Shown: in pieces, positions 6,391 to 33,963 of the stretch
Position numbering within the stretch: the first letter of the stretch is position 1
Layout: every line of letters begins with the position of its first letter
Source of the DNA: a virus
Virus record (IMG/VR): IMGVR_UViG_3300042406_000564
Location: 1 to 43,687 of that record
Length of the DNA: 43,687 bases
Reading direction: 5' to 3' (one strand)
Position numbers and translations under genes: made by a program
Notes under the pieces: generated by a model
Database searches by the model: none
The model's input: only the letters and a program-made list of their open reading frames with translations
Told to the model about the DNA's origin: nothing

Positions 6391-6615
6391 GTGGTCTACT
6401 TGTCCATGCAGGCAGCGGCGAAGCGGCTGGGGTGTTCCCCGCCAACAGTTCGCCGCATCGCGAAGGCAGAAGGTCTTGGCATCTTGGCTGACGGCACGCG
6501 AATCGTGGCCGTGGCTGCGACCGAACTGGCGTTGCTCAAGCCGCATATCCACGAGACGAGTGGGAACCCGTTGTGGATCGCTGCTGGCAAGAAGCCACGC
6601 CGACGAAAGAAGTGA
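6391..6615 (+). CDS. Small HTH DNA-binding protein (excisionase/MerR-like)
   Basis: 74 aa; GTG start ~9 nt after GGGAGA, with an alternative ATG at 6406. Residues 4-30 read LSMQAAAKRLGCSPPTVRRIAKAEGL in outline: a winged-helix HTH_17/MerR-type recognition helix. The basic tail is KKPRRRKK. It stands alone between a palindromic candidate operator and the duplicated intergenic element, at the head of the early region, so it is the best candidate for a regulator of the repeated promoters. Excisionase function is unlikely to be needed, since no integrase is visible. Confidence 0.65.
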   Translation: MVYLSMQAAAKRLGCSPPTVRRIAKAEGLGILADGTRIVAVAATELALLKPHIHETSGNPLWIAAGKKPRRRKK

Positions 6616-6617
6616 TT

Positions 6618-6764
6618 CCTATGTATATGGAAAACGAGACAGCCCCGATGAGGCTTCGCGGCGTCCCGTTTTCACGGCAGGCGTCGTAAGTCGTTGCGGG
6701 TGCGAGTGTTTTGCGTCGGGAGAATCGCCGCGAGAACCTCGTTTGCCGTGAGAACTTTTGGGAA
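6618..6764 (+). promoter_or_regulatory. Duplicated structured intergenic element, copy A
   Basis: Starts 2 nt after a stop codon. It begins with CCTATGTATATGG, then an imperfect long hairpin: GAAAACGaGAC pairs with GTCcCGTTTTC, enclosing GCCcCGA / TCGcGGC. It ends with a 23-nt block (6742-6764) identical to one in copy B. GAGAAT/GAGAAC/GGGAAC words recur at 6720, 6732, 6750 and 6760. Possible roles: structured RNA leader, transcription-termination site or replication origin. Confidence 0.65.
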
Positions 6765-6772
6765 CACGGATC

Positions 6773-6826
6773 AACGTGGACTTTTTGGGTACCCTCTGGT
6801 GCCAATGGGGTCCATATATCAAAGGG
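6773..6826 (+). promoter_or_regulatory. Shared intergenic element, copy 1 (possible promoter)
   Basis: AACGTGGACTTTTTG at 6773-6787, then 8 nt, CTGGT, 6 nt, GGGGT, 3 nt, TATATC (6815-6820) and AAAGGG. The same ordered blocks occur at 33105-33158. The TATATC could be a -10 box for the gene at 6855. Confidence 0.5.
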
Positions 6827-6854
6827 ACATTGACGCTGGTGCCACAATAGGCTC

Positions 6855-7100
6855 ATGGCACGCACGATCATCCACGTGAACCAACACGTGATCCGCCGCA
6901 ACGGCAAGACGGGCGACCGGCAGCCGGTTCTCACCGTGAAGCAAGGCCGCACGAACACCTACGCCACCTCCGTCGAGGTGCTGGGTCCGTGCCGCGTCGT
7001 GTATTCGCCCGACTGCCCGCTGCACTGCGGGGCGAAGGTGTGGCTGGAGACGGATTCGGAGGTGGTGCTGACCGGTTCCGCCCCCCCGCCCCGCCAATGA
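6855..7100 (+). CDS. Small conserved-looking hypothetical protein
   Basis: 81 aa: MARTIIHVNQHVIRRNGK start, a beta-rich middle (NTYATSVEVLGPCRVVYSP) and a short Pro-rich end. The composition suggests a small all-beta domain. From memory, similar proteins occur in many environmental phages without a known role. It lacks a clear SD; translation may begin close to a transcript 5' end set by the element at 6773-6826. Confidence 0.55.
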   Translation: MARTIIHVNQHVIRRNGKTGDRQPVLTVKQGRTNTYATSVEVLGPCRVVYSPDCPLHCGAKVWLETDSEVVLTGSAPPPRQ

Positions 7101-7150
7101 CCCGCGTTTTTCCCGAGAAAGACGGCAAAAAGATTTTTTTCTCCAGCCTA

Positions 7151-7206
7151 TTGACGCCAACAGCCGATACCCCTATCATACACAGGCCAACGCGGCGGAC
7201 ACCGCG
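7151..7206 (+). promoter_or_regulatory. Promoter/leader cassette P1
   Basis: TTGACG (7151-7156), 17-bp spacer with CGAT at 7165-7168, TATCAT (7174-7179). The A/T-rich upstream tract AAAAAGATTTTTTT resembles an UP element. The leader hairpin CGCGG-cggaca-CCGCG (7191-7206) starts ~5 nt from the predicted transcript start, followed by GGAG and the ATG at 7233. Confidence 0.85.
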
Positions 7207-7232
7207 AGGCGACAACAACGGAGAACGCGACC

Positions 7233-7526
7233 ATGGCTACGATCAACAACCTGCCCGAGACGATCACCAACGCGGCGATCCTTGATTTCACTGGTGCAGT
7301 GGGCTCATACAGCGGCAAGGCTCGCCGCTGCTGCTGCGGCTGCTGCGGCAACCACAGCGAAAGCCAGACAGCGATCACTCGGCAGATCAACAAGATCAAG
7401 CGGCTGGTCGCAGCCGGTCACGTCGCCGAGGTTGGGCCGAACAACATCGCGGTCGAAGTGATGAGCGGCGAAACCGACAACCACGGCGAACCGCAGGGCC
7501 GACTCTACATCGTCTACTTCAACTAA
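7233..7526 (+). CDS. Hypothetical protein with Cys cluster (CCCGCC)
   Basis: 97 aa with a GGAGAACG-type ribosome site. Residues 33-38 are CCCGCC followed by GNHSES, a dense thiol/histidine patch that could bind a metal. The rest is alpha/beta, ending in LYIVYF. First gene of the P1 operon. No family recognised. Confidence 0.5.
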   Translation: MATINNLPETITNAAILDFTGAVGSYSGKARRCCCGCCGNHSESQTAITRQINKIKRLVAAGHVAEVGPNNIAVEVMSGETDNHGEPQGRLYIVYFN

Positions 7527-7576
7527 CCAACCAACCGTACTTCACCACCAACACCACCAACACGGAGAACGCGACG

Positions 7577-7855
7577 ATGAACACCACAAGCAACACCAAG
7601 ATGGACAAGACCAAGTCGCTGATCGCGGATCACAAGTACCGGGCCATTAGCACGCTGTGCGATCTGAACGGAGTGTTCTCAGCGGCACTTGCCGAAGCAT
7701 CCAACACGGTCACTGCCAGCGAGTTGAACCTCGACCAGAGCGAGGCCTACGCCAAACTGATCGATCTGGAGTGGGAGATGGAGCGGCTTGCCAACTCGCT
7801 GACCAAGGCTCACCAAGCCGCGATGAAGATCATGGCCCGTAGTTCGGCTACCTGA
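7577..7855 (+). CDS. Hypothetical protein
   Basis: 92 aa, helical, with a Ser/Thr/Asn-rich N terminus. It uses the recurrent AACGGAGAACGCGACG ribosome site after a CACCA-rich spacer. Lies between the Cys-cluster protein and the cyclotransferase-like gene in the P1 operon. No motif found. Confidence 0.5.
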   Translation: MNTTSNTKMDKTKSLIADHKYRAISTLCDLNGVFSAALAEASNTVTASELNLDQSEAYAKLIDLEWEMERLANSLTKAHQAAMKIMARSSAT

Positions 7856-7888
7856 CTCACCACCACCACCCAAACGGAGAACGCGACG

Positions 7889-8275
7889 ATGATCCATAAG
7901 AACGTGATGCTTTTCGTGTACGGCACGCTGCGGAGCGATGCCAGCCCGTCCAACGCTCACCTGCTCGGCGGCATCCTGCTCAGCAGCCGAGCCACGGTGA
8001 GGGGCACGCTGTACGACTTCGGCCACTACCCCGGCATCGTGCTGAACGAGTTCGCGGGCGAAGTGGTCGGCGAGTTGTGGTCGGTGCCGAAGGCACAACT
8101 TAGCAGGCTCGATCACTACGAGGGCTCGGAGTACGCTCGCGTCGTGACCGAGGCCACCATGCCGGGCGGCAGCACCGTGACCGTGATGGTCTACGAGGCC
8201 TTCGACGTGGACGGTCTGGACAAGATTCCCGGCAACGATTGGACGAAGCGAGAAGTTTCCGAACAGCCCTATTGA
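7889..8275 (+). CDS. Gamma-glutamylcyclotransferase-like (AIG2/GGCT fold) protein
   Basis: 128 aa. The N terminus has the family signature LFVYGTLR (residues 8-15), then GTLYDFGHYPGIVL, VVGELW, and LDHYEGSEYARVV around residues 75-88. In that last motif the Glu is the usual catalytic acid. GGCT-fold enzymes release 5-oxoproline from gamma-glutamyl amines or related amides (for example BtrG and YtfP relatives). Within 2.5 kb lie an amidoligase and a class II glutamine amidotransferase, the classical partners of this fold, so it likely trims or transfers gamma-glutamyl groups made by the amidoligase. Its stop codon overlaps cassette P2. Confidence 0.8.
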   Translation: MIHKNVMLFVYGTLRSDASPSNAHLLGGILLSSRATVRGTLYDFGHYPGIVLNEFAGEVVGELWSVPKAQLSRLDHYEGSEYARVVTEATMPGGSTVTVMVYEAFDVDGLDKIPGNDWTKREVSEQPY

Positions 8276-8325
8276 CGCCCCGCGTCGATTGTGCTATCCT
8301 TCACCCGGTTGCGGCGGACACCGCA
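8272..8325 (+). promoter_or_regulatory. Promoter/leader cassette P2
   Basis: TTGACG (8272-8277) overlaps the stop of the upstream gene; CGAT at 8286-8289; TATCCT (8295-8300) after 17 bp. The leader hairpin is TGCGG-cggaca-CCGCA (8310-8325); the outer C-G pair of P1 is replaced by U-A, preserving pairing. Confidence 0.8.
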
Positions 8326-8351
8326 GCCAAAACCCAAACGGAGAACGAACC

Positions 8352-8780
8352 ATGCCACGCCGACCTGACCCCATGATGATGATGGCCGCGAACGCCGAGG
8401 CCTGCCCCGCACTCGACACGCTGTTACTGCTCGCACGCTACGCCATCATCACCCGTGCCGCACTGGAAATCGCACGGCTGCGAGGCGAGGCACCAATCAC
8501 CAAGGAGGATCGAGCGATGTGGACTACATTCGGAACCGCTGCACCGCAGCGGGTGGAAGTCGTGGAGGAGAAGCAACGAGGCACGACGATGATCCTGTAT
8601 CGAGGCAGCAACGCCTCGGTGCCAAGTGACACGCTGTTCGCAACGGAGTCGGATGCGTGGCTGGCGATGTATAGCAAGGCGGATGCCGAGATAACGGAAC
8701 TCTACAAACGGTCGGCAAGTCTCTACCGGGAGTTCTGCGAAGCACTCAAGCGGGAGCAGCAACAGGAGGACGCACGATGA
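8352..8780 (+). CDS. Hypothetical protein
   Basis: 142 aa from the ATG at 8352, preceded by AAACGGAGAACGAACC; the frame is open upstream but that part is leader. The N terminus is Met-rich (PMMMMAA). A helical C-terminal third ends in EALKREQQQEDAR. Coupled by ATGA to the next gene. First gene of the P2 operon; no family recognised. Confidence 0.55.
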   Translation: MPRRPDPMMMMAANAEACPALDTLLLLARYAIITRAALEIARLRGEAPITKEDRAMWTTFGTAAPQRVEVVEEKQRGTTMILYRGSNASVPSDTLFATESDAWLAMYSKADAEITELYKRSASLYREFCEALKREQQQEDAR

Positions 8781-8986
8781 GCAAGACAACGCTCTACATG
8801 ATCTCGTACCACGAGGAGGACACGCCAAGCGGAATCACGAAGGAGTGGTTCACCACGTTCAACAAGGCGATGAAGCGTCTGCGGCAACTCAAGTTGAGCG
8901 ACAGCCACGAGGTCAGGGTGCTTGAAGCGGAGCGAACGAAGGTCGGGCTGGTGGAGTTCCTCAACGTCTACGGAAAGATAGGGTGA
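8777..8986 (+). CDS. Small hypothetical protein
   Basis: 69 aa, starting in the ATGA overlap. Alpha/beta with many Lys/Glu (MISYHEEDTPSGITKEWF). No motif; P2 operon. Confidence 0.5.
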   Translation: MSKTTLYMISYHEEDTPSGITKEWFTTFNKAMKRLRQLKLSDSHEVRVLEAERTKVGLVEFLNVYGKIG

Positions 8987-8990
8987 CACG

Positions 8991-9167
8991 ATGATCGCAT
9001 GGATGAGGAGAATGATCGAGGCACACCGCAACACGTCGGAACTTGACCGGCTGCGGGCGACTGTGGAGGAACGCGACAAGCAGATCATGCTGCTTCAACT
9101 TCTCACTCGCAGGTTGCGCGACATCAACGCCGACCTCGACCATCGCATCACGGAGTTGCGGCGATGA
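8991..9167 (+). CDS. Small coiled-coil protein
   Basis: 58 aa (ATG 8991, TGA 9165-9167). A helical heptad region (LDRLRATVEERDKQIMLL) covers most of it. It follows the previous stop by 4 nt and couples by ATGA to the next gene, so it is a real reading frame despite its length. It could pair with the membrane protein encoded next. Confidence 0.55.
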   Translation: MIAWMRRMIEAHRNTSELDRLRATVEERDKQIMLLQLLTRRLRDINADLDHRITELRR

Positions 9168-9403
9168 TCCGCGACATCGTTCGCACCGCGTGCTTCATCG
9201 CCGCGATGGCTGTGGCCTGCTCGCTGCTGGTCGAGACTCGGCACCGGCTCGCCGTGATCGACCTTGCCCATCGGCAGGCTGTGGCACCAGCCCCCGTCTA
9301 CGCCACTACGCCGCCGCTGGCAGCCCCGACAACGGGGCCGCTGGCTCGGCTGGGGGCGGCGACGGTCGGGCTGGCAGACGCGGCTCTAGGGGTGATCCGG
9401 TAG
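9164..9403 (+). CDS. Small membrane-anchored protein
   Basis: 79 aa. Residues 5-24 (IVRTACFIAAMAVACSLLVE) form an N-terminal membrane segment; the rest is Ala/Pro-rich and likely periplasmic or extracytoplasmic. Last gene of the P2 operon. Coil-then-membrane pairs like this occur as spanin-type or envelope accessory proteins, but no direct sign of that role is seen. Confidence 0.5.
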   Translation: MIRDIVRTACFIAAMAVACSLLVETRHRLAVIDLAHRQAVAPAPVYATTPPLAAPTTGPLARLGAATVGLADAALGVIR

Positions 9404-9446
9404 CGATGCCTAAAAAACAGGGGTCAAAAAAAATCTTTGCAGCCTA

Positions 9447-9501
9447 TTGACGCCCCAAGCCGATACGTGTATCATTGGGACATGACGCGGCGGACACCGC
9501 G
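9447..9501 (+). promoter_or_regulatory. Promoter/leader cassette P3
   Basis: TTGACG (9447-9452), CGAT at 9461-9464, TATCAT (9470-9475), 17-bp spacing. An upstream tract with AAAAAACAGGGGTC and eight A's (9413-9433) is nearly the same as at P4. Hairpin CGCGG-cggaca-CCGCG at 9486-9501. Drives the amidoligase gene. Confidence 0.85.
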
Positions 9502-9532
9502 ACACGAGAACCAAAACGGAGAAGAACGATGA
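9482..9532 (+). CDS. Predicted 16-aa leader peptide of P3
   Basis: ATG at 9482 lies 7 nt after the -10 box, at the predicted transcription start, so the message would be leaderless. It reads MTRRTPRHENQNGEER and stops in TGA 9530-9532, overlapping the amidoligase start as ATGA. P4 has the same arrangement and P5 keeps RRTP with synonymous changes. Could equally be a by-product of a conserved hairpin. Confidence 0.35.
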   Translation: MTRRTPRHENQNGEER

Positions 9533-10362
9533 ACGCTGCCGAGATCACCTTTGGAGTTGAGATTGAGACGCACATCCCCTACGGCATCTGCCACGTCGGC
9601 GGGCACGGCTGCGGAATCCAAGTGCCGTGGCTCCCGGCTGGCTGGCTCGCCGATGGCGACCCCTCGATCCGCCCGCCCCGTGGCCGTCAGGGCTGCGAGT
9701 TCGTGAGCCCGGTTCTCAAGGGTGCCGAGGGACTTCGCCAGTTGGTCGAGGTGGTCGCCGAGATCAAGCGGCGTGGCGGCAAGGTGAACGACTCCTGCGG
9801 CATCCACGTTCACGTTGGATTCGACAAGAGGAACACGAAGGCTGTGGAGCGGCTGCTGTCGCTGGTAGCCAACCACGAAAAGGCCATCTACGCCGTGACC
9901 GGCACGAAGAACCGCGAGCGTGGCGTCGGCAGCCGTTACGGCACCTGCTGGTGCCAGAGCGTGAAGCAGTTCGGCAACGCTCGCAACGCGCTCACGAGCA
10001 GCCGTGGTCCCGCTCACTACCGATACAACGTGGTCAATCTGACCAGCCACAACCCGACCGCCGAGTTCCGTGCGTTCAGCGGCTCGCTGAACGCGACGAA
10101 GATCGTTGGCTACGTTCGGCTGTGCGTCGGGCTGGCACAGAAGGCAACCACGACGAAGCGTGCCTGCAAGTTCGACGCGGGCACCGGCCGGTTCAACCGC
10201 CGATTCAAGGAGGGCCGGGCGGAAGTGGCCCGCGTGTTCACCAGCCTCAAGTGGTTCGGCGGCAGCCCGCTCGGCGTGATCGAGGGGCCGGGCATCCCCA
10301 GCATCAAGGCCACGAAGAAGATCATGCGGGAACTGGCGAACCAGTACGACCGGCAGCCCTGA
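9529..10362 (+). CDS. Amidoligase-family enzyme
   Basis: 277 aa. The N terminus has FGVEIET (residues 8-14), then CGIHVHVG near residues 90-97, and later HYRYNVVNLTS...TAEFRAFSGSLN. These are the metal/ATP-site signatures of the putative amidoligase family, a glutamine-synthetase-like COOH-NH2 ligase. Such enzymes join a carboxylate to an amine using ATP. The family is typically encoded with GGCT-like cyclotransferases and class II amidotransferases, both present here. Likely role: amide or gamma-glutamyl modification of a small molecule, a peptide or a cell-surface component of the host. The substrate is unknown. Confidence 0.85.
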   Translation: MNAAEITFGVEIETHIPYGICHVGGHGCGIQVPWLPAGWLADGDPSIRPPRGRQGCEFVSPVLKGAEGLRQLVEVVAEIKRRGGKVNDSCGIHVHVGFDKRNTKAVERLLSLVANHEKAIYAVTGTKNRERGVGSRYGTCWCQSVKQFGNARNALTSSRGPAHYRYNVVNLTSHNPTAEFRAFSGSLNATKIVGYVRLCVGLAQKATTTKRACKFDAGTGRFNRRFKEGRAEVARVFTSLKWFGGSPLGVIEGPGIPSIKATKKIMRELANQYDRQP

Positions 10363-10381
10363 GACGGGGCGACCGACCAAC

Positions 10382-10408
10382 CCGCCAGCGGCACGTTGCC
10401 GCTGGCGG
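10382..10408 (+). terminator. 12-bp intercistronic hairpin after the amidoligase gene
   Basis: Perfect arms CCGCCAGCGGCA (10382-10393) and TGCCGCTGGCGG (10397-10408), loop CGT. No U-tract. Probably an mRNA end stabiliser or partial terminator between the amidoligase and amidotransferase genes. Confidence 0.55.
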
Positions 10409-10445
10409 CAGGACTCAAGAGACACCACCGATAGGAGACAGAACG

Positions 10446-11078
10446 ATGTGCGGCATTTTTGGATTCGTTGCGAAGCAGAACACCCGGATCAACCTGACCA
10501 CGCTGCGGCAGATCGCCACAGTGACAGAGCGGCGAGGCCCGCACGCGTGGGGCATGGCGTGGGTCGATGGTGCTGGCAAGGTGCGGACCTACAAGCAACC
10601 GGGGGCGATCACCGATTCGCTCGGGCTGCTGGCAATGGCGAAGGACGCACGGCTGCTCATCGGGCACTGCCGATGGGCGACGCACGGCGACCCGCGAACC
10701 AACACGAACAACCACCCGCACGACGGTGGCGACTCGTGGATCGTCCACAACGGAGTGATCGGCCACTACGAGGAGATTGCTGATCGGCACCGGCTTGACC
10801 TGCTCACCGACTGCGACTCCGAAGTGCTGGGGGCGATGATCCGCGACTTCCCCGGCAAGCCGATGGCACGTGCCAAGCGAGCCTGCACCGAAGCGATGGG
10901 CGACAACCCGTTCGCGATGATGGCACTGTGGCCCGACCGGCTGATCGCAGCACGGGCGAACAACCAGCCGCTACACGTGGGCGAGACTCGCGACGCGTTC
11001 TACCTTGCATCGCTGATCCACGGCTTGCCCGGTGTCGTGCAGCAACTGCCAAACGGCGAGATCGTTGAGTACGCTTGA
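10446..11078 (+). CDS. Class II glutamine amidotransferase
   Basis: 210 aa from the ATG at 10446; the same frame runs far upstream but overlaps the amidoligase gene and lacks an SD there. After Met removal Cys2 is the N-terminal nucleophile (MCGIFGF). RRGPHAWG, HCRWATHGDPRTNTNNHPH, IVHNGVIGHYEE and TDCDSE are the Ntn-type glutaminase signatures of GFAT/YafJ-like domains. It hydrolyses glutamine to ammonia and normally hands it to a partner synthase domain. No synthase domain is fused, so the neighbouring amidoligase is the natural acceptor. Length fits a stand-alone GATase domain. Confidence 0.88.
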   Translation: MCGIFGFVAKQNTRINLTTLRQIATVTERRGPHAWGMAWVDGAGKVRTYKQPGAITDSLGLLAMAKDARLLIGHCRWATHGDPRTNTNNHPHDGGDSWIVHNGVIGHYEEIADRHRLDLLTDCDSEVLGAMIRDFPGKPMARAKRACTEAMGDNPFAMMALWPDRLIAARANNQPLHVGETRDAFYLASLIHGLPGVVQQLPNGEIVEYA

Positions 11079-11087
11079 TCCACGTGC

Positions 11088-11123
11088 CGCCACTCCGCAC
11101 GGCTTGTGTCGTGCGGAGTGGCG
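11088..11123 (+). terminator. 14-bp intercistronic hairpin
   Basis: Perfect arms CGCCACTCCGCACG (11088-11101) and CGTGCGGAGTGGCG (11110-11123) with an 8-nt loop. No U-tract. Separates the amidotransferase gene from the small zinc-ribbon gene. Confidence 0.6.
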
Positions 11124-11152
11124 ACCACCACCTTCAACCCTCGGGGGCTGCG

Positions 11153-11374
11153 ATGACGAACGACCTAGTGACTGTGTGGCACTGCCCGACGTGCGGTGCC
11201 GAACTGCAAGCCGCAGGGATCGTGGAATGCGAAGGCGAGCGGATGCCGGTGTTCCAGTGCGACACGTGCGTCGTGACCAAGGACGTTTTCGGCGAGCCGT
11301 TCCGGGTGGCCCTCACGTTCGCGGTCAACGCGGCAGGCCAACCCGTGGACCCCGGCGATGACCAGATGCTCTAG
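11153..11374 (+). CDS. Small zinc-ribbon protein
   Basis: 73 aa from the ATG at 11153, chosen because the upstream part of the frame lies inside the hairpin. Two knuckles, CPTC (residues ~11-14) and CDTC (~37-40), form a treble-clef or ribbon zinc site. No catalytic residues. May bind DNA, RNA or a partner protein; function unknown. Confidence 0.55.
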   Translation: MTNDLVTVWHCPTCGAELQAAGIVECEGERMPVFQCDTCVVTKDVFGEPFRVALTFAVNAAGQPVDPGDDQML

Positions 11375-11415
11375 ACCCTTGAAAAACAGGGGTCAAAAAA
11401 AATCTGTGCAGGCTA

Positions 11416-11469
11416 TTGACGCCAACCGCCGATATGCTATCATAGGGACATGACGCGGCGGACACCGCG
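11416..11469 (+). promoter_or_regulatory. Promoter/leader cassette P4
   Basis: TTGACG (11416-11421), CGAT at 11430-11433, TATCAT (11438-11443), 16-bp spacing. The upstream tract is almost identical to that of P3. Hairpin CGCGG-cggaca-CCGCG at 11454-11469. Drives the 48-aa repeat protein gene. Confidence 0.85.
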
Positions 11470-11500
11470 ACAGGACAACGACCCGGAGAACGAACGATGA
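11450..11500 (+). CDS. Predicted 16-aa leader peptide of P4
   Basis: ATG at 11450 is at the predicted transcription start, 7 nt after TATCAT. It reads MTRRTPRQDNDPENER; TGA 11498-11500 overlaps the next ATG (11497) as ATGA. Same length, same start geometry and same terminal overlap as the P3 leader. Confidence 0.35.
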   Translation: MTRRTPRQDNDPENER

Positions 11501-11643
11501 ACGCCGCCAAGAAGATGACCCGCAAGGCTCGCTGGATCAAGACGCTGGAACTCCACGGTGCCAGCCAAGCCGCTCCCAAGGTCGCGAAGGCCTCGCCCCG
11601 CAAGGCTCGCTGGATTGCCAACCTCAAGATGCACGGCTGCTGA
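11497..11643 (+). CDS. 48-aa basic protein with an internal duplication
   Basis: ATG 11497 to TGA 11641-11643. It contains TRKARWIKTLELHG (residues 8-21) and PRKARWIANLKMHG (34-47), two copies of an RKARWIxxLxxHG unit joined by an Ala/Lys/Pro linker. pI is strongly basic. Directly behind the P4 leader with a GGAGAACG ribosome site, so likely well expressed early. The twin amphipathic basic helices suggest nucleic-acid binding or binding to a host protein; no known family comes to mind. Confidence 0.6.
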   Translation: MNAAKKMTRKARWIKTLELHGASQAAPKVAKASPRKARWIANLKMHGC

Positions 11644-11671
11644 ACCACCACCCCACAACGGAGACGAGACG

Positions 11672-11965
11672 ATGCACTGCGAAGAAAAGATTCTCAGCGA
11701 CTTCCGCGAGCGGATTGAGGCGATCATTCGCGGGCCGCACGCCCCGGTGTTCCAGCGGATGACCGCTGGCGGCACCACCGACTACGGCGTTCGGCACCAC
11801 GTGGCGGGCAAGGTGTTCACGCTTGCCCAACTCCGCGACACAGCCACGCGGCTGGAGTGGTTCGGCGTTTGCTCGATGACCAAGGCGATGCTGCTGCCGT
11901 CGCTGCTGGAGTCGGCGTACCAGTTCTGCAACGACGGCTCGCTGCCGCAAGAGATCAACGGTTGA
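11672..11965 (+). CDS. Hypothetical protein
   Basis: 97 aa from the ATG at 11672 after AACGGAGACGAGACG. Alpha/beta, with TDYGVRHHVAGKVFTLAQL in the middle and a helical end. Second gene of the P4 operon. No family recognised. Confidence 0.5.
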   Translation: MHCEEKILSDFRERIEAIIRGPHAPVFQRMTAGGTTDYGVRHHVAGKVFTLAQLRDTATRLEWFGVCSMTKAMLLPSLLESAYQFCNDGSLPQEING

Positions 11966-12001
11966 TTGTTCGGACTATCACCACCAACGGAGAACACGGC
12001 C

Positions 12002-12244
12002 ATGCTTCCCGCAACTCGGATGGACTTCAAGAAAATCAAGGACGCGATCAACAGCCTGTCGCGTCCCGACCAGCGAACGCAGCAGACAACCAAGGTTGGC
12101 GACAACCTTGCTGCGGTGGAGGCCACGCTCACGCTGATTGAAAGACTGTGCGAAGTGATTCGGCAGCAGGAGGAACTGCACCGCGAGCCGCGAGCCGCAA
12201 CGAAAAAAAATCTTGACAACCCTATTGACGGGGCAGGCCGATAG
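12002..12244 (+). CDS. Hypothetical helical protein
   Basis: 80 aa from the ATG at 12002 after ACGGAGAACACGGCC. Helical (IKDAINSLSRP, LAAVEATLTLIERLCEVIRQ), perhaps a short coiled coil. Its last ~10 codons overlap the -35 and spacer of cassette P5, so the promoter is embedded in its coding end. Confidence 0.5.
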   Translation: MLPATRMDFKKIKDAINSLSRPDQRTQQTTKVGDNLAAVEATLTLIERLCEVIRQQEELHREPRAATKKNLDNPIDGAGR

Positions 12245-12281
12245 CGATATCCTTCTGAGGTGCTGCGGCGAACGCCGCAGC
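12225..12281 (+). promoter_or_regulatory. Promoter/leader cassette P5
   Basis: TTGACG (12225-12230), CGAT at 12239-12242, TATCCT (12248-12253), 17-bp spacing; eight A's at 12203-12210 upstream, and an extra TTGACA at 12213. The hairpin is longer than in P1-P4: GCTGCGGC-gaac-GCCGCAGC (12262-12281). Drives the DUF932 gene. Confidence 0.8.
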
Positions 12282-12286
12282 GATGA
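12260..12286 (+). CDS. Predicted 8-aa leader peptide of P5
   Basis: GTG at 12260 is exactly 7 nt after the -10 box. It reads MLRRTPQR then TGA (12284-12286). Relative to P1-P4 the RRTP codons differ only at two third positions (CGA for CGG, ACG for ACA). Too short to trust alone. Confidence 0.3.
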   Translation: MLRRTPQR

Positions 12287-12335
12287 CTAGACGGACTGAG
12301 TAGGTTTGAAACCAACAACCAAGGAGACGATGACC

Positions 12336-13223
12336 ATGAGCGAGACTATTGACAACGCGGTGGCACAGCAGGTTCGGTCGGCGTTCCCGTTCACCGTGGA
12401 CAAGTTCCCGCTGACCGGCCCCGATGGGATGCGGACTCCCCACTACGGGCTGTTCCGCAGCGACAGCGGGCAGTGCGTCGCCGGGGCCGTTTCCGGCAGG
12501 TACGTGCCGCACACCACCGAGGACGTGCTGGCTCTGGTGGAGGCGGCTGGCTCAGTGTTCGGCGGAACCGCTGCCGTGCAGACGCACTTTGATGACGGCC
12601 ACTACGTGACTGTGCAGCCGTCGCGAGAGTACCGGCTTGCGGTGTTTGGGAACAGCGACAACGTGTTCCCGCGACTGATCCTCGACGCACCATACGGTGG
12701 CATGGGTTCATTCACGGGGACGGTCGGGCTGTTCCGTGACTTGTGCCGCAACCTGTCGCGGCTGCGGAGCGTCTCGTCCGCCACGGTGTCGGTGATCCAC
12801 AACAGCAACCTCCGCTCGCGGATGGACGAACTTCGCACGACGTTCGCCAGCCTTGATGCAGGGTGGCAGAACCTGTCGCTCGTCGTTCGGCAGATGGAGG
12901 ATCGCCGCGTGCGGATGGTGGACTTCCTCAACGCCGTGTACGGTGAGCCGGGTGAGCGTGACGGTCGCTCGCTGACCATCCACAAGAACCGAACCGAGGC
13001 GATCTTCAATCGCCTGCTCCGCGAGCGGGTTCAGTCCAGTCGCGGTGACATCGGCAACGACTTCGTGGTGTCGGGATGGGAGGCGTGGAACGCCGTGCAG
13101 GGATACGTGCAGCACGACAAGACTCGACGCGGCTCGCCATCGGAAATGGATCGGGTGGTGCGATCACTGCACGATTCCGCAGTGGCTCGTGCCGAGAGAC
13201 TTGTGTTTGAAATGGCGGTCTAG
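12336..13223 (+). CDS. DUF932 (phage/plasmid-like) protein
   Basis: 295 aa from the ATG at 12336, which sits 8 nt after AAGGAG; an ATG at 12330 is too close to it. Recognisable features: YVPHTTEDVLALVEAAG, an FTGTVGLFRDLCRNL-type core, and the helical C-terminal half common to the DUF932 / phage-plasmid-like TIGR03299-type family. Members are found on phages and plasmids beside replication or recombination genes; the biochemical role is not established. It has its own promoter (P5) and a strong terminator directly after, so it is expressed as a single-gene unit. Confidence 0.75.
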   Translation: MSETIDNAVAQQVRSAFPFTVDKFPLTGPDGMRTPHYGLFRSDSGQCVAGAVSGRYVPHTTEDVLALVEAAGSVFGGTAAVQTHFDDGHYVTVQPSREYRLAVFGNSDNVFPRLILDAPYGGMGSFTGTVGLFRDLCRNLSRLRSVSSATVSVIHNSNLRSRMDELRTTFASLDAGWQNLSLVVRQMEDRRVRMVDFLNAVYGEPGERDGRSLTIHKNRTEAIFNRLLRERVQSSRGDIGNDFVVSGWEAWNAVQGYVQHDKTRRGSPSEMDRVVRSLHDSAVARAERLVFEMAV

Positions 13224-13258
13224 TCCCCCGCCAGAGCCTTGCCGCAAGGCTTGGCTCG

Positions 13259-13306
13259 CCGGGGCGGGCGGTTCCTCCGTTCTCCCGCCCGCCCCGGTTT
13301 CTTTTT
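13259..13306 (+). terminator. Intrinsic terminator after the DUF932 gene
   Basis: Perfect 13-bp stem CCGGGGCGGGCGG (13259-13271) / CCGCCCGCCCCGG (13285-13297), followed by TTTCTTTTT (13298-13306). The best rho-independent terminator in the window. It separates the early cassettes from the replication genes. Confidence 0.9.
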
Positions 13307-13335
13307 CAACGAACGGCACAACCACCGAGGGAAAC

Positions 13336-13632
13336 ATGGACACGCCAATCAAGGTCTACAAGTCATACGTTTTCGACAACCAGTGCGATTACTACCTGTG
13401 GGAAGGCACGCTCACCGACGTGGAAGTCGATGGGGTGCAGATGGTGCGACACGGCTCATCGCTGTCGCCACTCACCGATGGGTGGCACTTCACCAAGGCC
13501 GGTGCGAAGGGTGATGCGGCCAAGCGGATGGCGGTGCTGATCGGCATATCGCAGGCACGGCTGGACAAACTCCGCGACGAAATCCTGCACGAAACGCTCA
13601 CCACGGAGGAGGTGCCGCATGGCGTGGCATGA
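13336..13632 (+). CDS. Hypothetical protein upstream of SNF2 helicase
   Basis: 98 aa from the ATG at 13336 (GAGGGAAAC before it). The N-terminal half is beta-rich (VYKSYVFDNQCDYYLWEGTLTDVEVDGVQMV); the C-terminal half is helical. Overlaps the SNF2 gene by 14 nt. No family recognised. Confidence 0.55.
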   Translation: MDTPIKVYKSYVFDNQCDYYLWEGTLTDVEVDGVQMVRHGSSLSPLTDGWHFTKAGAKGDAAKRMAVLIGISQARLDKLRDEILHETLTTEEVPHGVA

Positions 13633-15031
13633 CTCGTTCGACCGGATGAAGCAGAGGCCGCACGTGTTGGTGTGCTGCCCGCAAGCAGTCGCCTCCGCGT
13701 GGGGCAAGGTGGTGGCAGGCGTTGCCAACGGAGCCTTCACGCCGTGGCAGCATCAACTGCTGGCAGCGACGTGGCTCGGCGAGCGAGCGGCAGGGATGCT
13801 GGCTATGGACATGGGGACGGGCAAGACGTTTACCGCCCTGCTGGCACTGCTGACCAAGGAGATGCCGCTGGTGTTTCTCGACCTGTCCCGTGGCACCGGC
13901 AAGTCGCGAGCCGAGCGGCTCCAGAAAGCACTCGCCACAGCGAGCGGCAAGCGGCTGATCGTTTGCGTGAACTACGAGTCGGTGTGGCGGTCGCAACTCG
14001 CACCCACCATCGAGTCCATTCAGTGGTCGGCCATCGTGCTGGACGAGTCGCACCGAATCAAGTCACCCGGCGGAACGGCGAGCAGGTATCTGGCACGGCT
14101 CGCAGCGAAGCAGGCGCACGCCAAGCGGGTCTGCCTCACCGGGACGCCGATGCCTCACTCGCCGCTCGACCTGTACGGGCAGTGCCGGTTCCTCGACTCG
14201 TCGCTGTTCGGCACGTCGTTCACCCGGATGCGGAACAGGTACGCCGAGTGCGACCCACGGTTCCCATCCAAGGTCCGCAAGTGGCGGAACCAAGAAGAAC
14301 TCACGACCAAACTGGACTCCATCTCGTGGCGTGTCACTGCCGACGAGGTGCTGGACTTGCCCGACGCTATTCACGAGACGATCCCCGTTCAACTCTCGCC
14401 AGCCGTGCTTCGGTTCTACTCGCGGCTTGAGGCCGAGATGACTGCCGAGATCGGTGCTGGCACCGTCACAGCGGCGAACGCCTTGACTAAACTGCTGCGG
14501 CTGGCACAGGCCACGGGCGGGTATGCACGAATCGACGGCACGGAAGGCTCTGTGCCAATCGACGGCACGCCTTCCAAGCGGATGGCGTTGCAGGACAGGC
14601 TTGAGGACTTGCCAGCGACAGAGCCTGTGGTAGTGTTCTGCCGCTTCCGAACCGACCTTGAGGACGTTGCTGCCGTGGCCCGTGAGTTGGGCCGCGAGTA
14701 CGCCGAGGTCAGCGGCGAGCGGAAGGACTTGGAGCGGTGGCAGGATGGCGACGCCGTGATCCTCGGCGTGCAGATGCAATCGGGCGGCGTGGGCATCGAC
14801 TGCTCGCGTGCGGCATACGCCTTCTACTACAGCCTCGGCTATTCGCTGGGCGACTACGAGCAATCACTGGCACGGTTGCGGCGACCGGGCCAGACGCGAT
14901 GTGTTCGCTACTACCACCTCGTGTGCGAGGGGACTGTGGATGAGCAGGTGTATGCGGCACTGAGGGAGCGTCGCGATGTCGTGGACGCGGTGCTGACAAG
15001 ACTCTCGCCGAGACAGGAGCAAGTGGCATGA
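13619..15031 (+). CDS. SNF2-family DEAD/DEAH-type helicase/translocase
   Basis: 470 aa. Walker A MGTGKT with Lys near residue 69, DESH box at 142-145, LTGTPMPHS (motif III), a C-terminal RecA domain with VVVFCRFRTD, LGVQMQSGGVGID (motif V) and SLARLRRPGQT (motif VI). This matches the compact SNF2-like helicases common next to phage primases. It is an ATP-driven dsDNA translocase, probably in replication restart, recombination or replisome remodelling. Couples by ATGA to the next gene. Confidence 0.92.
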   Translation: MAWHDSFDRMKQRPHVLVCCPQAVASAWGKVVAGVANGAFTPWQHQLLAATWLGERAAGMLAMDMGTGKTFTALLALLTKEMPLVFLDLSRGTGKSRAERLQKALATASGKRLIVCVNYESVWRSQLAPTIESIQWSAIVLDESHRIKSPGGTASRYLARLAAKQAHAKRVCLTGTPMPHSPLDLYGQCRFLDSSLFGTSFTRMRNRYAECDPRFPSKVRKWRNQEELTTKLDSISWRVTADEVLDLPDAIHETIPVQLSPAVLRFYSRLEAEMTAEIGAGTVTAANALTKLLRLAQATGGYARIDGTEGSVPIDGTPSKRMALQDRLEDLPATEPVVVFCRFRTDLEDVAAVARELGREYAEVSGERKDLERWQDGDAVILGVQMQSGGVGIDCSRAAYAFYYSLGYSLGDYEQSLARLRRPGQTRCVRYYHLVCEGTVDEQVYAALRERRDVVDAVLTRLSPRQEQVA

Positions 15032-15453
15032 TCGAAGAACAGCAGTTGAGCAAGATGCTGGAGAAGGTTGCCGAGTTGCAGGCCGAGAAGGATCGGCTTA
15101 CCAGCGAGGCGAAGATCGTGAGCAAGGAGTTGTCAGAGGCCGAGCAGTTGGCCGTCGAACTGCTGGCAGCGTCGGGCCTCGACGGAGTGCGGGCAGCAGG
15201 AAAGTCGTGGTATACACGCGAGTTCTTCGCCGTCAGTGTGCCGACCGAGAACCGCGAAGCGGTGGTCGCGGCAGCCAAGGATGCAGGGTTGGATGACCTC
15301 ATCGCGGTGAACACCACCACGCTCAAGTCGTGGCTGATGGAACACCGCGATCACTCCGAGTCGGCGGATGCTGGCCTTGCTGCTGGCACGCCGTTCGATG
15401 GGCTGGTTCGGGAGTTTCGCGAAGTGCGGCTGTCCAGCCGCACGCTTGGATGA
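15028..15453 (+). CDS. Conserved phage replication-region protein, coiled coil
   Basis: 141 aa. An N-terminal coiled coil (residues 1-50) is followed by a small domain (LLAASGLDGVRAAGKSWYTREFFAVSV...AAAKDAGLDDLIAVNTTTLKSWLME). From memory, this layout is typical of an uncharacterised family beside SNF2 helicases in many siphophages. Role inferred as accessory to replication or recombination. Confidence 0.6.
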   Translation: MIEEQQLSKMLEKVAELQAEKDRLTSEAKIVSKELSEAEQLAVELLAASGLDGVRAAGKSWYTREFFAVSVPTENREAVVAAAKDAGLDDLIAVNTTTLKSWLMEHRDHSESADAGLAAGTPFDGLVREFREVRLSSRTLG

Positions 15454-15481
15454 TTCACCAAAAACAGAAAGGCAGGGCAGC

Positions 15482-15928
15482 ATGATCGGAACGAATGGCC
15501 TCGACACGTCCAACGGGGACGGGCTCAAGATGACGTTCGGCAGGGTTCACGGCGTGGGCCGTATCTGCACCACGGCGGACCTCGTGGTCGCGCCGCGTTC
15601 GGAGAAGGGCACGCCAATCGGCATCGCCATCCGGCTCGCCGGGGACGTGCTGATCGCCGCAGGGTGGACGCCGGGGGACTACGTGGCGTTGGAGTTTGAG
15701 AAGCACAAGGGGCATCTCTACTTCATCGTTCGCCGAGTGCCCGCCAGCGTCGGCGTGAAACTGATTGCCTCGGAGTTGCAAACCGAGACGGCTGGCCGCT
15801 CCTACTTCACGGTTGGAGAGAAGGCGGTCAAGACGCTGTTCCGTTTTGCAACGGCGGCTGGTCACTACGAGGCCAAGTTGGTCGCGTATGACAAGGACGG
15901 GGACAAGTGTGCGTTCGCAGTTGAGTGA
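15482..15928 (+). CDS. Hypothetical protein in replication operon
   Basis: 148 aa from the ATG at 15482 after AAAGGCAGGGCAGC. Largely beta (AAGWTPGDYVALEFEKHKGHLYFIVRRV), which could be an AbrB-like or SSB-like barrel, but no family signature is clear. Lies between the helicase-associated gene and the next conserved gene. Confidence 0.5.
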   Translation: MIGTNGLDTSNGDGLKMTFGRVHGVGRICTTADLVVAPRSEKGTPIGIAIRLAGDVLIAAGWTPGDYVALEFEKHKGHLYFIVRRVPASVGVKLIASELQTETAGRSYFTVGEKAVKTLFRFATAAGHYEAKLVAYDKDGDKCAFAVE

Positions 15929-15962
15929 TGGTTCGGTTTTCATTCACAAAGGAGAGTGTCGC

Positions 15963-16724
15963 ATGGCACCTAGTGGAGAGATGACGGTCGGAACTGATTC
16001 CAAGTTCCTCGCCCTGCGTCCGGACAGCGATGTCCGCGAGGCGTTGATGGCGAACCTCGGGCCGGGAGAGACGCTGCTGGCGTCCGACCTGCCGCGAGTC
16101 TCGACGCCTGCGGGCGGCGGGAAGGTTTGGTCGTGGACGGACAGCGGCAACAACGAGCAGAGTGCCAAGTCCATCGACGGCATCCTCGTGTACTACGGCG
16201 TGCGTGGCACGCTGTGGGGCAGCGAGGAGCCGCAGGGCAAGGCCAGCCCGGTGCTGGTGTCGTTCGATTTGGATACGGCGGTGCGGGTGAACGAGGACAT
16301 TGGCGACCTCGACGCCGATGCTCTGGAGTCGTGCCGCACGGGTGACCGGACCTACGATTGGAAGCGACTGCCGTACAACCAGTACGGCACCAGCAAGTCC
16401 GGTCGTGGGAAGCGGTGCAAGGAGAGCCGACTGCTGGCGATCCTTCGTGCCGACGAGGCGTGGCCGCTGCTGGTGACGGCAGGACCGGGCAGCCTCAAGA
16501 CGGTCACGCCGTTCGTCAAGCGGCTCGCGGTGCCGCACTTTCGGGCGATGGTCAGCCTGACCCTCGACCGAGTGGAGAACGCGGGAGGGCAGCCCTACTC
16601 GCAGATCGTTCCGAAGTACCTCGGTGCGATCAGCAAGGAGGAGGGCGACATCGTGCGGCAACTCTACACCAACCCGCTCTCGCGGGTGGCAGCGCAGATC
16701 GACGTGCCGCAGGATGCGGCGTAG
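15963..16724 (+). CDS. Conserved phage protein with PYNQ(Y)GTxKxGRGKxCKE motif
   Basis: 253 aa from the ATG at 15963 (AAAGGAGAG before it). LPRVSTPAGGGKVWSW and DGILVYY open the fold; LPYNQYGTSKSGRGKRCKES (centre) and GSLKTVTPFVKRLA follow. This motif order matches a widespread, functionally unassigned phage family in replication regions, in which the first motif usually begins with a Cys. Here that position is Leu, so one metal ligand may be lost. Possibly single-strand binding; not demonstrated. Confidence 0.6.
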   Translation: MAPSGEMTVGTDSKFLALRPDSDVREALMANLGPGETLLASDLPRVSTPAGGGKVWSWTDSGNNEQSAKSIDGILVYYGVRGTLWGSEEPQGKASPVLVSFDLDTAVRVNEDIGDLDADALESCRTGDRTYDWKRLPYNQYGTSKSGRGKRCKESRLLAILRADEAWPLLVTAGPGSLKTVTPFVKRLAVPHFRAMVSLTLDRVENAGGQPYSQIVPKYLGAISKEEGDIVRQLYTNPLSRVAAQIDVPQDAA

Positions 16725-16750
16725 TCAAGGATCGGCTCGTCGGTCCATGT

Positions 16751-16785
16751 ACCTCCCGCCGCGTGGAGACGCGGCGGGAGGTTTT
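16751..16785 (+). terminator. Intrinsic terminator before the primase-polymerase gene
   Basis: Stem CCTCCCGCCGCGT / ACGCGGCGGGAGG (16752-16764 / 16769-16781, extendable by A-T), loop GGAG, followed by TTTT. Likely attenuates readthrough into the primase gene. Confidence 0.85.
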
Positions 16786-16812
16786 CCAAACACCACAAAC
16801 GGAGATCGAGTC

Positions 16813-18555
16813 ATGAACGGCGTGAACGTGTTGGCTGCTTCCTACTGCCGCCACGGTTGGCATCTGGTGCCGCTGTACGGCGTGGTTGAACGCGGCGTCT
16901 GCACCTGCATGAAAGGCAACGACTGCGGCACACCGGGCAAGCACCCAAGTGGCGGTGCAGCGTGGCACCTTTCGGCGACCAACGACGAGGAGGAAGTGCT
17001 GTCGTGGTTTGAGGGAAGCAGGCCAGTGAACGTCGGCCTGCTGCTCGGCCCCAAGTCGGGGATCATCGACGTTGAACTGGACGGCGATGATGCCAAGGCG
17101 GCGTGGAACGAACTCGGCCTCGGAGAAATCTGGACGCCGACATACCAAGCCGGTCGCGGGCCGCATCGCTTGTTCCGGTGGAGCGATGGTCTGCCAGCCG
17201 TCGCCGTGCGTAAAGTCATGGGGATCGAGGTTCGCCTCGGCAACGGCGGCAGGGCAGCACAATCGGTGATCCCGCCAAGCACGCACCACACAGGGTGCGC
17301 CTACCAGTGGGTGCCCGGTATGTCGCCAGATGATATTGACCCGCAGCCGCTGCCAGAGCGGTTGATGAACCTGCTGTGGAACGACGATGGCTCGGGCCAG
17401 ACGCGTGCCATCTCGCGATCCCCGGCTCGCGAAGTTCTGCACCGGCCAGTGCAGAGCGGCGGACGCAACAGCGAACTGCACAGGTTCGCGTGCGCCGAGG
17501 CGTTCCGTGCTGGCCCGAACCTCGACAACGAACGCGAGCAGCAAGACCTGCTGCTCAAGATTCGGGCGGTGAACACGCTCCAGTGCAAGCCGCCGCTGGA
17601 TGATGCCGAGTGCGTGGCGATCTACCGCTCGGCCATCGGGTTCGTGCGGAAGAATCGTGCGGCTGGCGTGACGATAGAGGCAGCCCTCGCAGTGGCAGAG
17701 ACTGCACAGGCACCAGCGGTGCCATCGGCTCGCCAGCCGGGGCTGGCGGCAACCGGATGGCAGCGAGTGTTCACGGAGGTTGGCCTGTCGTTCGCACCGC
17801 TGGCACCCGACAGCGACAGCGATCCCGAGTGGGGGCCGGGCGAGTGGAGCGTGACCATCGTTCACAGCGACCCGATTGAGTACCGACTGCACGTTCCGCA
17901 CTGGCGGGAGATGACTGCCGACCGCACGGGCAACGTGACTCTGACCGTGGATCAGTACCGCTCGGCCACCAAGGTGGCAGCGCAGGTTCTCGCAGCCACC
18001 GGGCGAGTGATGCTGGACGATGACCCGAAGCGGTGGCGTCAGATTTGGGATGGCGGGTACAAGGTTCGCGACAACGTGGCAGCGGGCGACCGGGCAACCA
18101 AGCGGACGGCTCGCGGCGTGAAGGCCAAACTGCTGGACAACGCGGGGGAGGAGTGGCCGGGAGCGTCAAGCCTGCGGTACGTGCTGCTCGCCTCGTGGTT
18201 GTACGACAGGCTGGCTCAAGCCTCCCAGCCGAGCGAGGACGATGTGCCCGACCCGACCGGGCGGGCGGCGTGGCGGCAGGATGGGTCGCTGTGGTTCGCG
18301 TGGGGTCGAGTGTGGGAGGACATTGAGCGGCAGCACCGGGTGGAGAACGGTGAGCGGCTTGCCCTCAAGAGGCGTCTGCTGGCCCGTATGGGGGCAGCGG
18401 AGGACTTCCGGCACTCGGAGTACCGGCACCTCGGGGGAACCCGCAGATCGTATGTGGTGTGGTCTAGGAGGGAGTTCGCCGTGCTGGAGGATATGGCTGC
18501 AACGCTGACCACCAGCGGCACGCGTGCCGAGCAGCCGGGACCGCCGGAAGAATGA
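16813..18555 (+). CDS. Bifunctional DNA primase/polymerase (prim-pol)
   Basis: 580 aa from the ATG at 16813 after AAACGGAGATCGAGTC. N-terminal prim-pol (AEP) domain: GWHLVPLYG, TPGKHPSGGAAW, NVGLLLGPKSGIIDVELDGDDA (acidic catalytic pair), GRGPHRLFRW, then VIPPSTHHTG. Residues ~215-310 resemble a primase C-terminal helical domain (NSELHRFACAEAFRAG). The rest is a winged-helix-like C-terminal region without a visible Walker A, so a helicase domain is not fused. It synthesises primers and probably extends DNA. No separate family A or B DNA polymerase is visible in the window. Confidence 0.88.
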   Translation: MNGVNVLAASYCRHGWHLVPLYGVVERGVCTCMKGNDCGTPGKHPSGGAAWHLSATNDEEEVLSWFEGSRPVNVGLLLGPKSGIIDVELDGDDAKAAWNELGLGEIWTPTYQAGRGPHRLFRWSDGLPAVAVRKVMGIEVRLGNGGRAAQSVIPPSTHHTGCAYQWVPGMSPDDIDPQPLPERLMNLLWNDDGSGQTRAISRSPAREVLHRPVQSGGRNSELHRFACAEAFRAGPNLDNEREQQDLLLKIRAVNTLQCKPPLDDAECVAIYRSAIGFVRKNRAAGVTIEAALAVAETAQAPAVPSARQPGLAATGWQRVFTEVGLSFAPLAPDSDSDPEWGPGEWSVTIVHSDPIEYRLHVPHWREMTADRTGNVTLTVDQYRSATKVAAQVLAATGRVMLDDDPKRWRQIWDGGYKVRDNVAAGDRATKRTARGVKAKLLDNAGEEWPGASSLRYVLLASWLYDRLAQASQPSEDDVPDPTGRAAWRQDGSLWFAWGRVWEDIERQHRVENGERLALKRRLLARMGAAEDFRHSEYRHLGGTRRSYVVWSRREFAVLEDMAATLTTSGTRAEQPGPPEE

Positions 18556-18560
18556 CCGCC

Positions 18561-18708
18561 CCTATGTATATGGGAAACGCAACGTGCCCCGATAGGCTTC
18601 GCGGCGCGTCGTTTTCCCGGCAAGGTGCGATCCGCTCTTGAAAACAAGCGGAAAACGTGCCGCGAAAACTGACGCGAAAACCGTTTTTGCCGTGAGAACT
18701 TTTGGGAA
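18561..18708 (+). promoter_or_regulatory. Duplicated structured intergenic element, copy B
   Basis: Starts 5 nt after a stop codon with the same CCTATGTATATGG as copy A. Hairpin: GGGAAACG..ACG pairs with CGT-CGTTTTCCC, enclosing GCCcCGA / TCGcGGC. The outer stem sequence differs from A but still pairs. GAAAAC words sit at 18640, 18651, 18664 and 18676, about one helical turn apart. The 23-nt block at 18686-18708 is identical to 6742-6764. Confidence 0.7.
18640..18681 (+). repeat. Four phased GAAAAC iterons
   Basis: GAAAAC at 18640-18645, 18651-18656, 18664-18669 and 18676-18681; intervals 11, 13 and 12 bp. Helical phasing suggests cooperative protein binding, as at phage origins or operators. 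Located between the primase-polymerase and UvrD-like helicase genes. Confidence 0.6.
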
Positions 18709-18765
18709 ACAGGTCGATTCAGCAGCCAGATTGCCTATTCTAACTTCCTAACAAGGGGGGATTCG

Positions 18766-33327: not shown

Positions 33328-33963
33328 GTGAAGATCCGTGACCGCATACGCGAACTGAGACGTGTTCCCGCCAACCTGCTGGTGCCGAATCCGAAAAACT
33401 GGCGCACCCACCCCAAGGCACAGCAGGACGCACTCCGTGGCGTGCTGGCCGAGGTTGGCATGGCCGACGCCGTGCTGGCCCGCGAACTACCCGATGGGTC
33501 GCTCATGCTGATCGACGGGCACCTGCGAGCCGAGACAATCGCCGACGCCAAGGTGCCGGTGCTGGTGCTGGACGTTACCGAGGCCGAGGCTGACAAACTT
33601 CTCGCCACCATCGACCCGCTGGCGGCGATGGCCGAGACGGATGGTGCCAAGTTTGACGAACTTCTTCGCACGGTGAACACCAGTAGCGAGGCCTTGCAGC
33701 AGATGCTCGCTGCCCAACACGAGGATCACGTTCGTCAGCAACTCCGCGACATAGCCGCTGCTGAGGGCGACGAGCAAAGTGACGAGCAAGGCGACCCTGC
33801 GGACACCGGGTACGTGCAGTTCTCTGTTCCGCTCACCGCAGGTCAGGAGCATGACGTTCGCTCAGCACTGCGGCTGGCGAAGAAAGTGTTCGCCACGGAG
33901 TCGAGCGGCGAGGCACTTGCGCTCGCGGTAGCCGAGTGGCGTGACTCTCGGGGGTCGCAGTGA
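33328..33963 (+). CDS. ParB-like nuclease-domain protein
   Basis: 211 aa, GTG start. Residues 13-70 (VPANLLVPNPKNWRTHPKAQQDAL..VLAEVGMADAVLARELPDGSLMLIDGHLRAE) form the ParB/Srx N-terminal fold with the IDGHxRxE box. The helical C terminus lacks the usual ParB HTH. Phage-encoded ParB-like domains can be nucleases or regulatory NTPases. GTGATG junction with the PAPS-reductase-like gene. Confidence 0.82.
   Translation: MKIRDRIRELRRVPANLLVPNPKNWRTHPKAQQDALRGVLAEVGMADAVLARELPDGSLMLIDGHLRAETIADAKVPVLVLDVTEAEADKLLATIDPLAAMAETDGAKFDELLRTVNTSSEALQQMLAAQHEDHVRQQLRDIAAAEGDEQSDEQGDPADTGYVQFSVPLTAGQEHDVRSALRLAKKVFATESSGEALALAVAEWRDSRGSQ

Follow-up and report, generated by a model that had tools for sequence, protein, structure and literature searches.

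A duplicated iteron-dyad element beside primase-polymerase and helicase genes as a probable pair of replication origins in an uncultured phage

The 43,687-base virus record IMGVR_UViG_3300042406_000564, analyzed here over its whole length (the window), carries a duplicated intergenic element of ∼150 nucleotides (nt). One copy (A) follows the gene for a small helix-turn-helix (HTH) protein and the other (B) is flanked by replication genes, with a Prim-Pol gene before it and a UvrD-like helicase gene after it. The initial annotation of this stretch described two such copies, and they are real: A begins 2 nt past the TGA stop of the 74-amino-acid HTH gene, and B begins 5 nt past that of the primase-polymerase gene, ahead of the helicase gene, a placement shared by relatives. 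Both copies run in the direction of the genes. The element cores and the adjoining genes are as follows.

6391..6615, plus strand: gene for a small HTH protein of 74 amino acids, HTH_17/HTH_23-like by weak, sub-cut-off Pfam matches; kept in relatives
6618..6764, plus strand: copy A, element core, aligned to copy B; equivalents lie directly 3' of the HTH gene in relatives
16813..18555 (listed open reading frame from 16624), plus strand: archaeo-eukaryotic primase (AEP) primase-polymerase gene, for a candidate origin-binding and priming protein; Pfam Prim-Pol, 4.6e-22
18561..18708, plus strand: copy B, element core, aligned to copy A; relatives' equivalents lie in the gap before the helicase gene
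18766..20409, plus strand: UvrD/Rep-like superfamily 1 (SF1) helicase gene, directly after copy B; Pfam UvrD 2e-14, PHROG 1967 4e-47

Copies A and B match each other by blastn with E values of 9e-13 and 2e-8, and the 23-nt block described as identical between them holds (6742-6764 = 18686-18708), with its core, CCGTGAGAACTTTTGGGAA, occurring twice in the window against 0 expected in shuffles. The A/B repeat is far beyond chance. The likeness resides at the ends (77% over the 5' 62 nt and 81% over the 3' 48 nt) and the middle is unlike (6680-6716 versus 18623-18660), which is the reverse of the earlier description of a nearly identical inner part within outer stems that differ yet still pair. 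Copy B contains the four GAAAAC words attributed to it, at 18640, 18651, 18664, and 18676 with spacings of 11, 13, and 12 nt; the GAGAAC words attributed to A are also there, accompanied by GAGAAT words.

Read 5' to 3', the two copies share a plan consisting of a TATATA box set in a short GGG/CCC dyad, an inverted iteron (CGTTTTCCCGGCA), an inner dyad, and two to three direct iterons with the consensus TGCCGNGAAAAC. Many A copies then carry a ACGTGGACTTTTTGG-like motif and a second TATATA box. The parts in the window are listed below; boxes and dyads are given without a strand.

6616..6632: left box of A, a TTCC-TATGTATAT-GGAA dyad, from the sequence, with equivalents in relatives
6667..6679, minus strand: inverted iteron of A (CGTTTTCACGGCA), from the sequence and a motif scan
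6685..6715: inner dyad of A (CGTAAGTCGTTG...GTGTTTTGCG), cognate in alignments A5, A6, and A9 of the lineage-wide CGTAAGTCCTTG-n-CAAGGGTTTACG motif
6715..6755, plus strand: direct iterons of A (GTCGGGAGAAT, CGCCGCGAGAAC, TGCCGTGAGAAC), from the sequence and a repeat comparison
6774..6788, plus strand: ACGTGGACTTTTTGG motif 3' of A, with similar motifs after A in L014, L016, L111, L117, and L119
6810..6828: right box of A, a GTCC-ATATATCAAA-GGGAC dyad, with right boxes also in L016A, L018A, L110A, L111A, and L119A
18559..18576: left box of B, CCCC-TATGTATAT-GGG, from the sequence and an arm comparison
18610..18622, minus strand: inverted iteron of B (CGTTTTCCCGGCA), from the sequence and a motif scan
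18625..18659: inner dyad or hairpin of B, with a fold z of -1.7 for the window's copy
18658..18699, plus strand: direct iterons of B (TGCCGCGAAAAC, TGACGCGAAAAC, TGCCGTGAGAAC), from the sequence and a repeat comparison

As in iteron origins, words are repeated near helical-turn spacing, with an inverted and two to three direct TGCCGNGAAAAC copies per element. The AT-rich stretches are the TATATA boxes of 8-9 nt at the element ends, and there is no long AT-rich run. In the four genomes scanned (the window, G001, G011, and G012), the box and iteron motifs are nearly confined to A and B, the sole exception being a loose box match at 52,230 of G011; the strict box motif in G001 is found solely at both ends of copy A. 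The near confinement of the box to the two elements led us to reject it as a general promoter. A scan for promoter-like matches returned none in 18300-18900 around B and, after A, none until 7151. A promoter-like unit, CCTATTGACGCC-n-CCGATA..TATCAT, lies before several early genes at window positions 7147, 8268, 9443, and 12221, and is also seen in relatives. The idea that a promoter always follows copy A was dropped; this seems to be so in L015, L018, L111, L112, and L113, and is not so in the window.

Exact scans of viral contigs with conserved 20-nt and 19-nt words gave no match, the DNA being too diverged; searches guided by protein succeeded. A helicase search recovered relatives at 78-82% identity, and an alignment-based search extended these to 80 viral loci (denoted by L numbers). 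The helicase search also found related replication genes on five contigs of Planctomycetota metagenome-assembled genomes (MAGs), which links the phage family, on sequence grounds, to Planctomycetota. L063 and L107 are apparently the same 33,863-base contig, present once as a viral record and once within a Planctomycetaceae MAG. A strict dyad pattern had 0 matches in 246 Planctomycetota genomes, the pattern being too strict for most of our own loci, so that this negative carries little weight.

Conservation in relatives, whose absence had been named beforehand as refuting, was found for both elements. In close relatives the element is recognizable in the gap before the helicase gene, and in most others this gap is rich in repeats. 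We compared repeated 7-mer pairs in 68 distinct 200-nt stretches upstream of the helicase gene with those in shuffles and coding controls, and found a mean of 15.5 versus 3.8 and 5.3, respectively, with an excess at p<=0.05 in 53 of the 68 stretches and at p<=0.01 in 43. Copy A lies directly 3' of the HTH gene in 14 relatives, namely, all seven close ones (a set that includes the near-identical phages L017 and L018) and L109-L113, L117, and L119. In distant lineages the position is kept and the iteron words differ (GGACGG, GGGCCA/GGACC, GCGGTA, and TTCAC), while the inner dyad form TAAGTcCTTG-n-CAAGGGTTTA is kept across many lineages with different iterons. Five loci (L068, L077, L081, L086, and L096) have two iteron-dyad units in tandem before the helicase gene rather than one, and L064 and L066 have an inner dyad that overlaps the primase stop codon.

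The two copies also change together. In the 13 genomes with both copies, we compared the 50-nt stretch of A that precedes its inverted iteron with the B copies; this 5' part of A scored 54.4 with the B of its own genome and 30.4 with those of other genomes (permutation p<1e-4), its own B being the best match in 9 of 13. Such concerted change implies either gene conversion or selection exerted on both copies by one trans-acting factor, and the 23-nt block that is identical in the window exemplifies it. Within the element, the identity of the direct repeats D1 and D2 (0.725 versus 0.670 shuffled, +0.055) is preserved no less well than I-D1 complementarity (0.815 versus 0.784 shuffled, +0.031), with both excesses partly due to kinship of the sequences.

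The adjoining genes provide two candidate binders. The primase-polymerase model (predicted local distance difference test score [pLDDT], 84.5) matches the folds of the pRN1 primase (E 6e-5), NrS-1 Prim-Pol (8e-4), and ORF904 (2.7e-3), with a weaker match to RepB' (E 0.3; 3h20 and 3h25, also in complex with initiator DNA). No helicase domain family was found in the protein by Pfam. Modeled alone, the C-terminal part reached a pLDDT of 89.8, and residues 141-269 of this model align with winged-helix proteins such as TcpK, PadR/LmrR, and RTP at Z 5-7. The C terminus thus appears winged-helix-like in the model, a likeness that we take as only a common arrangement; a profile of this part had no match among PDB sequences. 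The middle domain resembled SaPI Rep and SCCmec Cch only weakly in fold (Z 5.5 and 4.3), and these matches were not used as evidence. Against 50,697 phage genomes, the primase-polymerase matched no record over 80% of its length. Its sequence classes parallel the iteron classes, a pattern that phylogeny alone could explain. The HTH gene is present in 7 of 7 close relatives, and 12 of the other 25 contigs examined have a match at E<1e-15; it was detected in the GGGAAAAC-iteron lineages that were tested and went undetected in the majority of GGACGG, GGGCCA, or GCGTCA lineages, a correlation confounded by phylogeny. In the helicase gene of L010 (IMGVR_UViG_3300042516_002891, ∼4600-5001), the match starts only at residue 252 and is preceded by an intein-end-like HHTYVTTNGVVTGN at a conserved motif; this helicase probably holds an intein.

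From this context, we consider it probable that A and B are paired replication-initiation sites (origin modules) in the double-stranded DNA of this phage. Of the three options raised by the initial annotation, the replication origin pair fits best, because iterons and AT-rich boxes adjoin the primase-polymerase and helicase genes, are nearly confined to two places, are conserved, and evolve in concert; the operator option remains the main rival, and the structured-RNA option found no support. We hypothesize that the iterons would be bound by a phage initiator, either the HTH protein or the primase-polymerase through its winged-helix-like C-terminal domain, or by both. Melting or extrusion of the AT-rich boxes and dyad would follow, the primase-polymerase would make a primer at the opened element, and the helicase encoded next door would open the fork. 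By analogy with P4, replication may require both copies, or it may begin at one while the other titrates or regulates the initiator. More tentatively, the family could possess two co-evolving origin modules of a common plan and fixed position whose iteron word turns over with the DNA-binding part of the primase-polymerase, possibly a two-site origin of a kind undescribed for primase-polymerase replicons. To our knowledge, the origins of primase-polymerase phages have hardly been mapped.

A structured RNA (riboswitch-like, an attenuator, or a put-like antitermination element) transcribed from the plus strand at both sites would suit copies that are oriented like the genes, and the inner folds are indeed stable in 18 close B copies (mean z, -2.2), where there is also weak covariation. 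For 20 close B copies, the I/D1 stem plus the inner stem pair in 91.8% of cells versus 89.2% shuffled, and the covariation score is 0.106 versus 0.064, with 1 of 500 shuffles as high and kinship alone able to exceed shuffles. The window had 0 Rfam matches at gathering score (the best permissive match, in copy A, had an E value of 5.8), the minimum-energy folds of A and B differ and are only modestly stable relative to shuffles (z -1.57 and -2.04, respectively), and no strand asymmetry of the fold persisted once composition was allowed for (z+ -0.93, z- -1.13). The A and distant copies are at control level throughout: their inner folds average a z of -0.24, 33 of their inner dyads pair at 69.1% versus 68.2% with the 3' letters shuffled, and 54 of 500 shuffles pair as well as the 14 A copies. 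MAFFT alignments of the inner dyads may contain one-base register shifts where loop lengths differ, and an alignment-free arm-swap test added for this problem agreed for these groups, with pairing no worse after arms were swapped between genomes in A (p 0.60) and distant copies (p 0.96). The same test was marginal in close B copies (0.057) and left boxes (0.077), and the pooled p of 0.002 is a product of mixing groups. Pairing in further copies, whose loss had likewise been named beforehand as refuting, is thus only partly maintained, with a weak signal in close B copies and none above controls in A and distant ones. In several relatives promoter-like sequence lies after A, not before it. We regard an RNA element as very unlikely. 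Because direct-repeat identity is kept and pairing is mostly at control level, the constraint looks like one on shared double-stranded DNA binding sites, and close B copies may form a genuine hairpin. Another alternative is ssi-type hairpins, in which inner dyads extruded as single-stranded DNA would be recognized directly by a RepB'-like primase-polymerase, replacing iteron binding as the key step. The TAAGTcCTTG-n-CAAGGGTTTA dyad is conserved across iteron classes and stable in close B copies, and the RepB' match includes the initiator-DNA complex, but that match has an E value of 0.3, compensatory pairing is lacking in A and distant copies, and A and B lie on the same strand, not on opposite strands like ssiA and ssiB; we find this scheme quite improbable as well.

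The more serious challenge, though one we think unlikely to be correct, is that the HTH protein uses A and B as operators or as a partition-like site, controlling its own region at A and the helicase end of the replication operon at B, with no replication start. The HTH gene adjoins copy A, its detection tracks GGGAAAAC-iteron lineages and mostly not other iteron classes, and the iterons co-evolve as double-stranded DNA words with A and B changing together. However, no clear promoter coincides with either element, 150-210 bp with AT boxes and dyads is a large size for an operator, and the gaps before the helicase gene are still rich in repeats in lineages where no HTH gene is detectable. The presence of dyads and short inverted end boxes in two copies of the same orientation might also suggest a recombination, resolution, or packaging (cos/pac) site, but neither copy is at the packaging genes (terminase at 36855, portal at 38459), crossing-over between direct copies would delete the primase gene, and A is absent in some relatives, making such a site exceedingly improbable.

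Several observations weigh against paired origins. In four relatives (L114, L115, L116, and L118) the HTH gene is present but no element follows it directly, and therefore two copies are not universal. The named or cultured phages inspected, with a related helicase at 25-29% identity, have little or no gap before the helicase gene. Concerted evolution and iterons would also fit an operator or partition site, kinship accounts for part of the within-element identity, and the winged-helix matches are modest (best Z, 6.8). GC skew has no turning point because the genes are co-oriented, and is uninformative. Dozens of genomes in which site, repeats, and initiator candidates vary together form a natural experiment on initiator-origin recognition, and this family makes a direct test of initiator-origin pairing possible. 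The element also provides a means of recognizing the replication module of these uncultured phages by sequence.

Elsewhere in the window, three tandem 75-nt repeats (25 codons each) lie in an open reading frame at 2662-2886, the later ones 91% and 68% like the first. The early region encodes a protein with a C-terminal glutamine amidotransferase (GATase_6) domain (9627-11075), and a phosphoadenosine phosphosulfate reductase-like gene (33960-35126; PHROG 2302, 2e-79) is found among the structural genes.

Of the systems to which this locus can be compared, NrS-1 has a Prim-Pol that primes at specific template words, TTTGGTTA and GTG (PMC8718748). It resembles the window in having a phage primase-polymerase with a separate helicase and a matching fold (E 8e-4), and differs in that no TTTGGTTA array was seen here, the elements instead being ∼150-nt modules of dyads and iterons. 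RSF1010 has separate RepA and RepC, and its ssiA and ssiB hairpins are on opposite strands. The likeness lies in dyads near iterons and in the related, weakly matching RepB' primase fold, whereas both elements here are on the same strand. P4 has two separate repeat regions in one genome, ori1 and crr. Like P4 and other iteron origins (lambda O, RSF1010 RepC), the window combines short repeated words, two repeat regions, a winged-helix-type initiator candidate, and adjoining primase and helicase genes, but the iteron word and dyad plan here are different. P4 alpha has a Toprim-type primase (PMC4234260).

By analogy, the best precedent is the Sulfolobus plasmid pRN1, in which a ∼100-nt stem-loop 3' of orf904 is needed for replication and is functional when moved; this origin is without iterons, and phage BIP-1 also has a stem-loop (PMC4234260). 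ORF904 carries a superfamily 3 (SF3) helicase domain, whereas the window encodes a separate SF1 helicase, and the elements here have iterons, two copies, and weak hairpin conservation confined to close B copies. We do not file the phage as a pRN1-type replicon because its protein has no SF3 helicase domain and because iterons and two copies are present. What the two systems have in common is a dyad-rich element of ∼100-150 nt just 3' of an AEP primase-polymerase gene, whose product here has a fold related to that of ORF904 and a predicted winged-helix-like domain at its C terminus.

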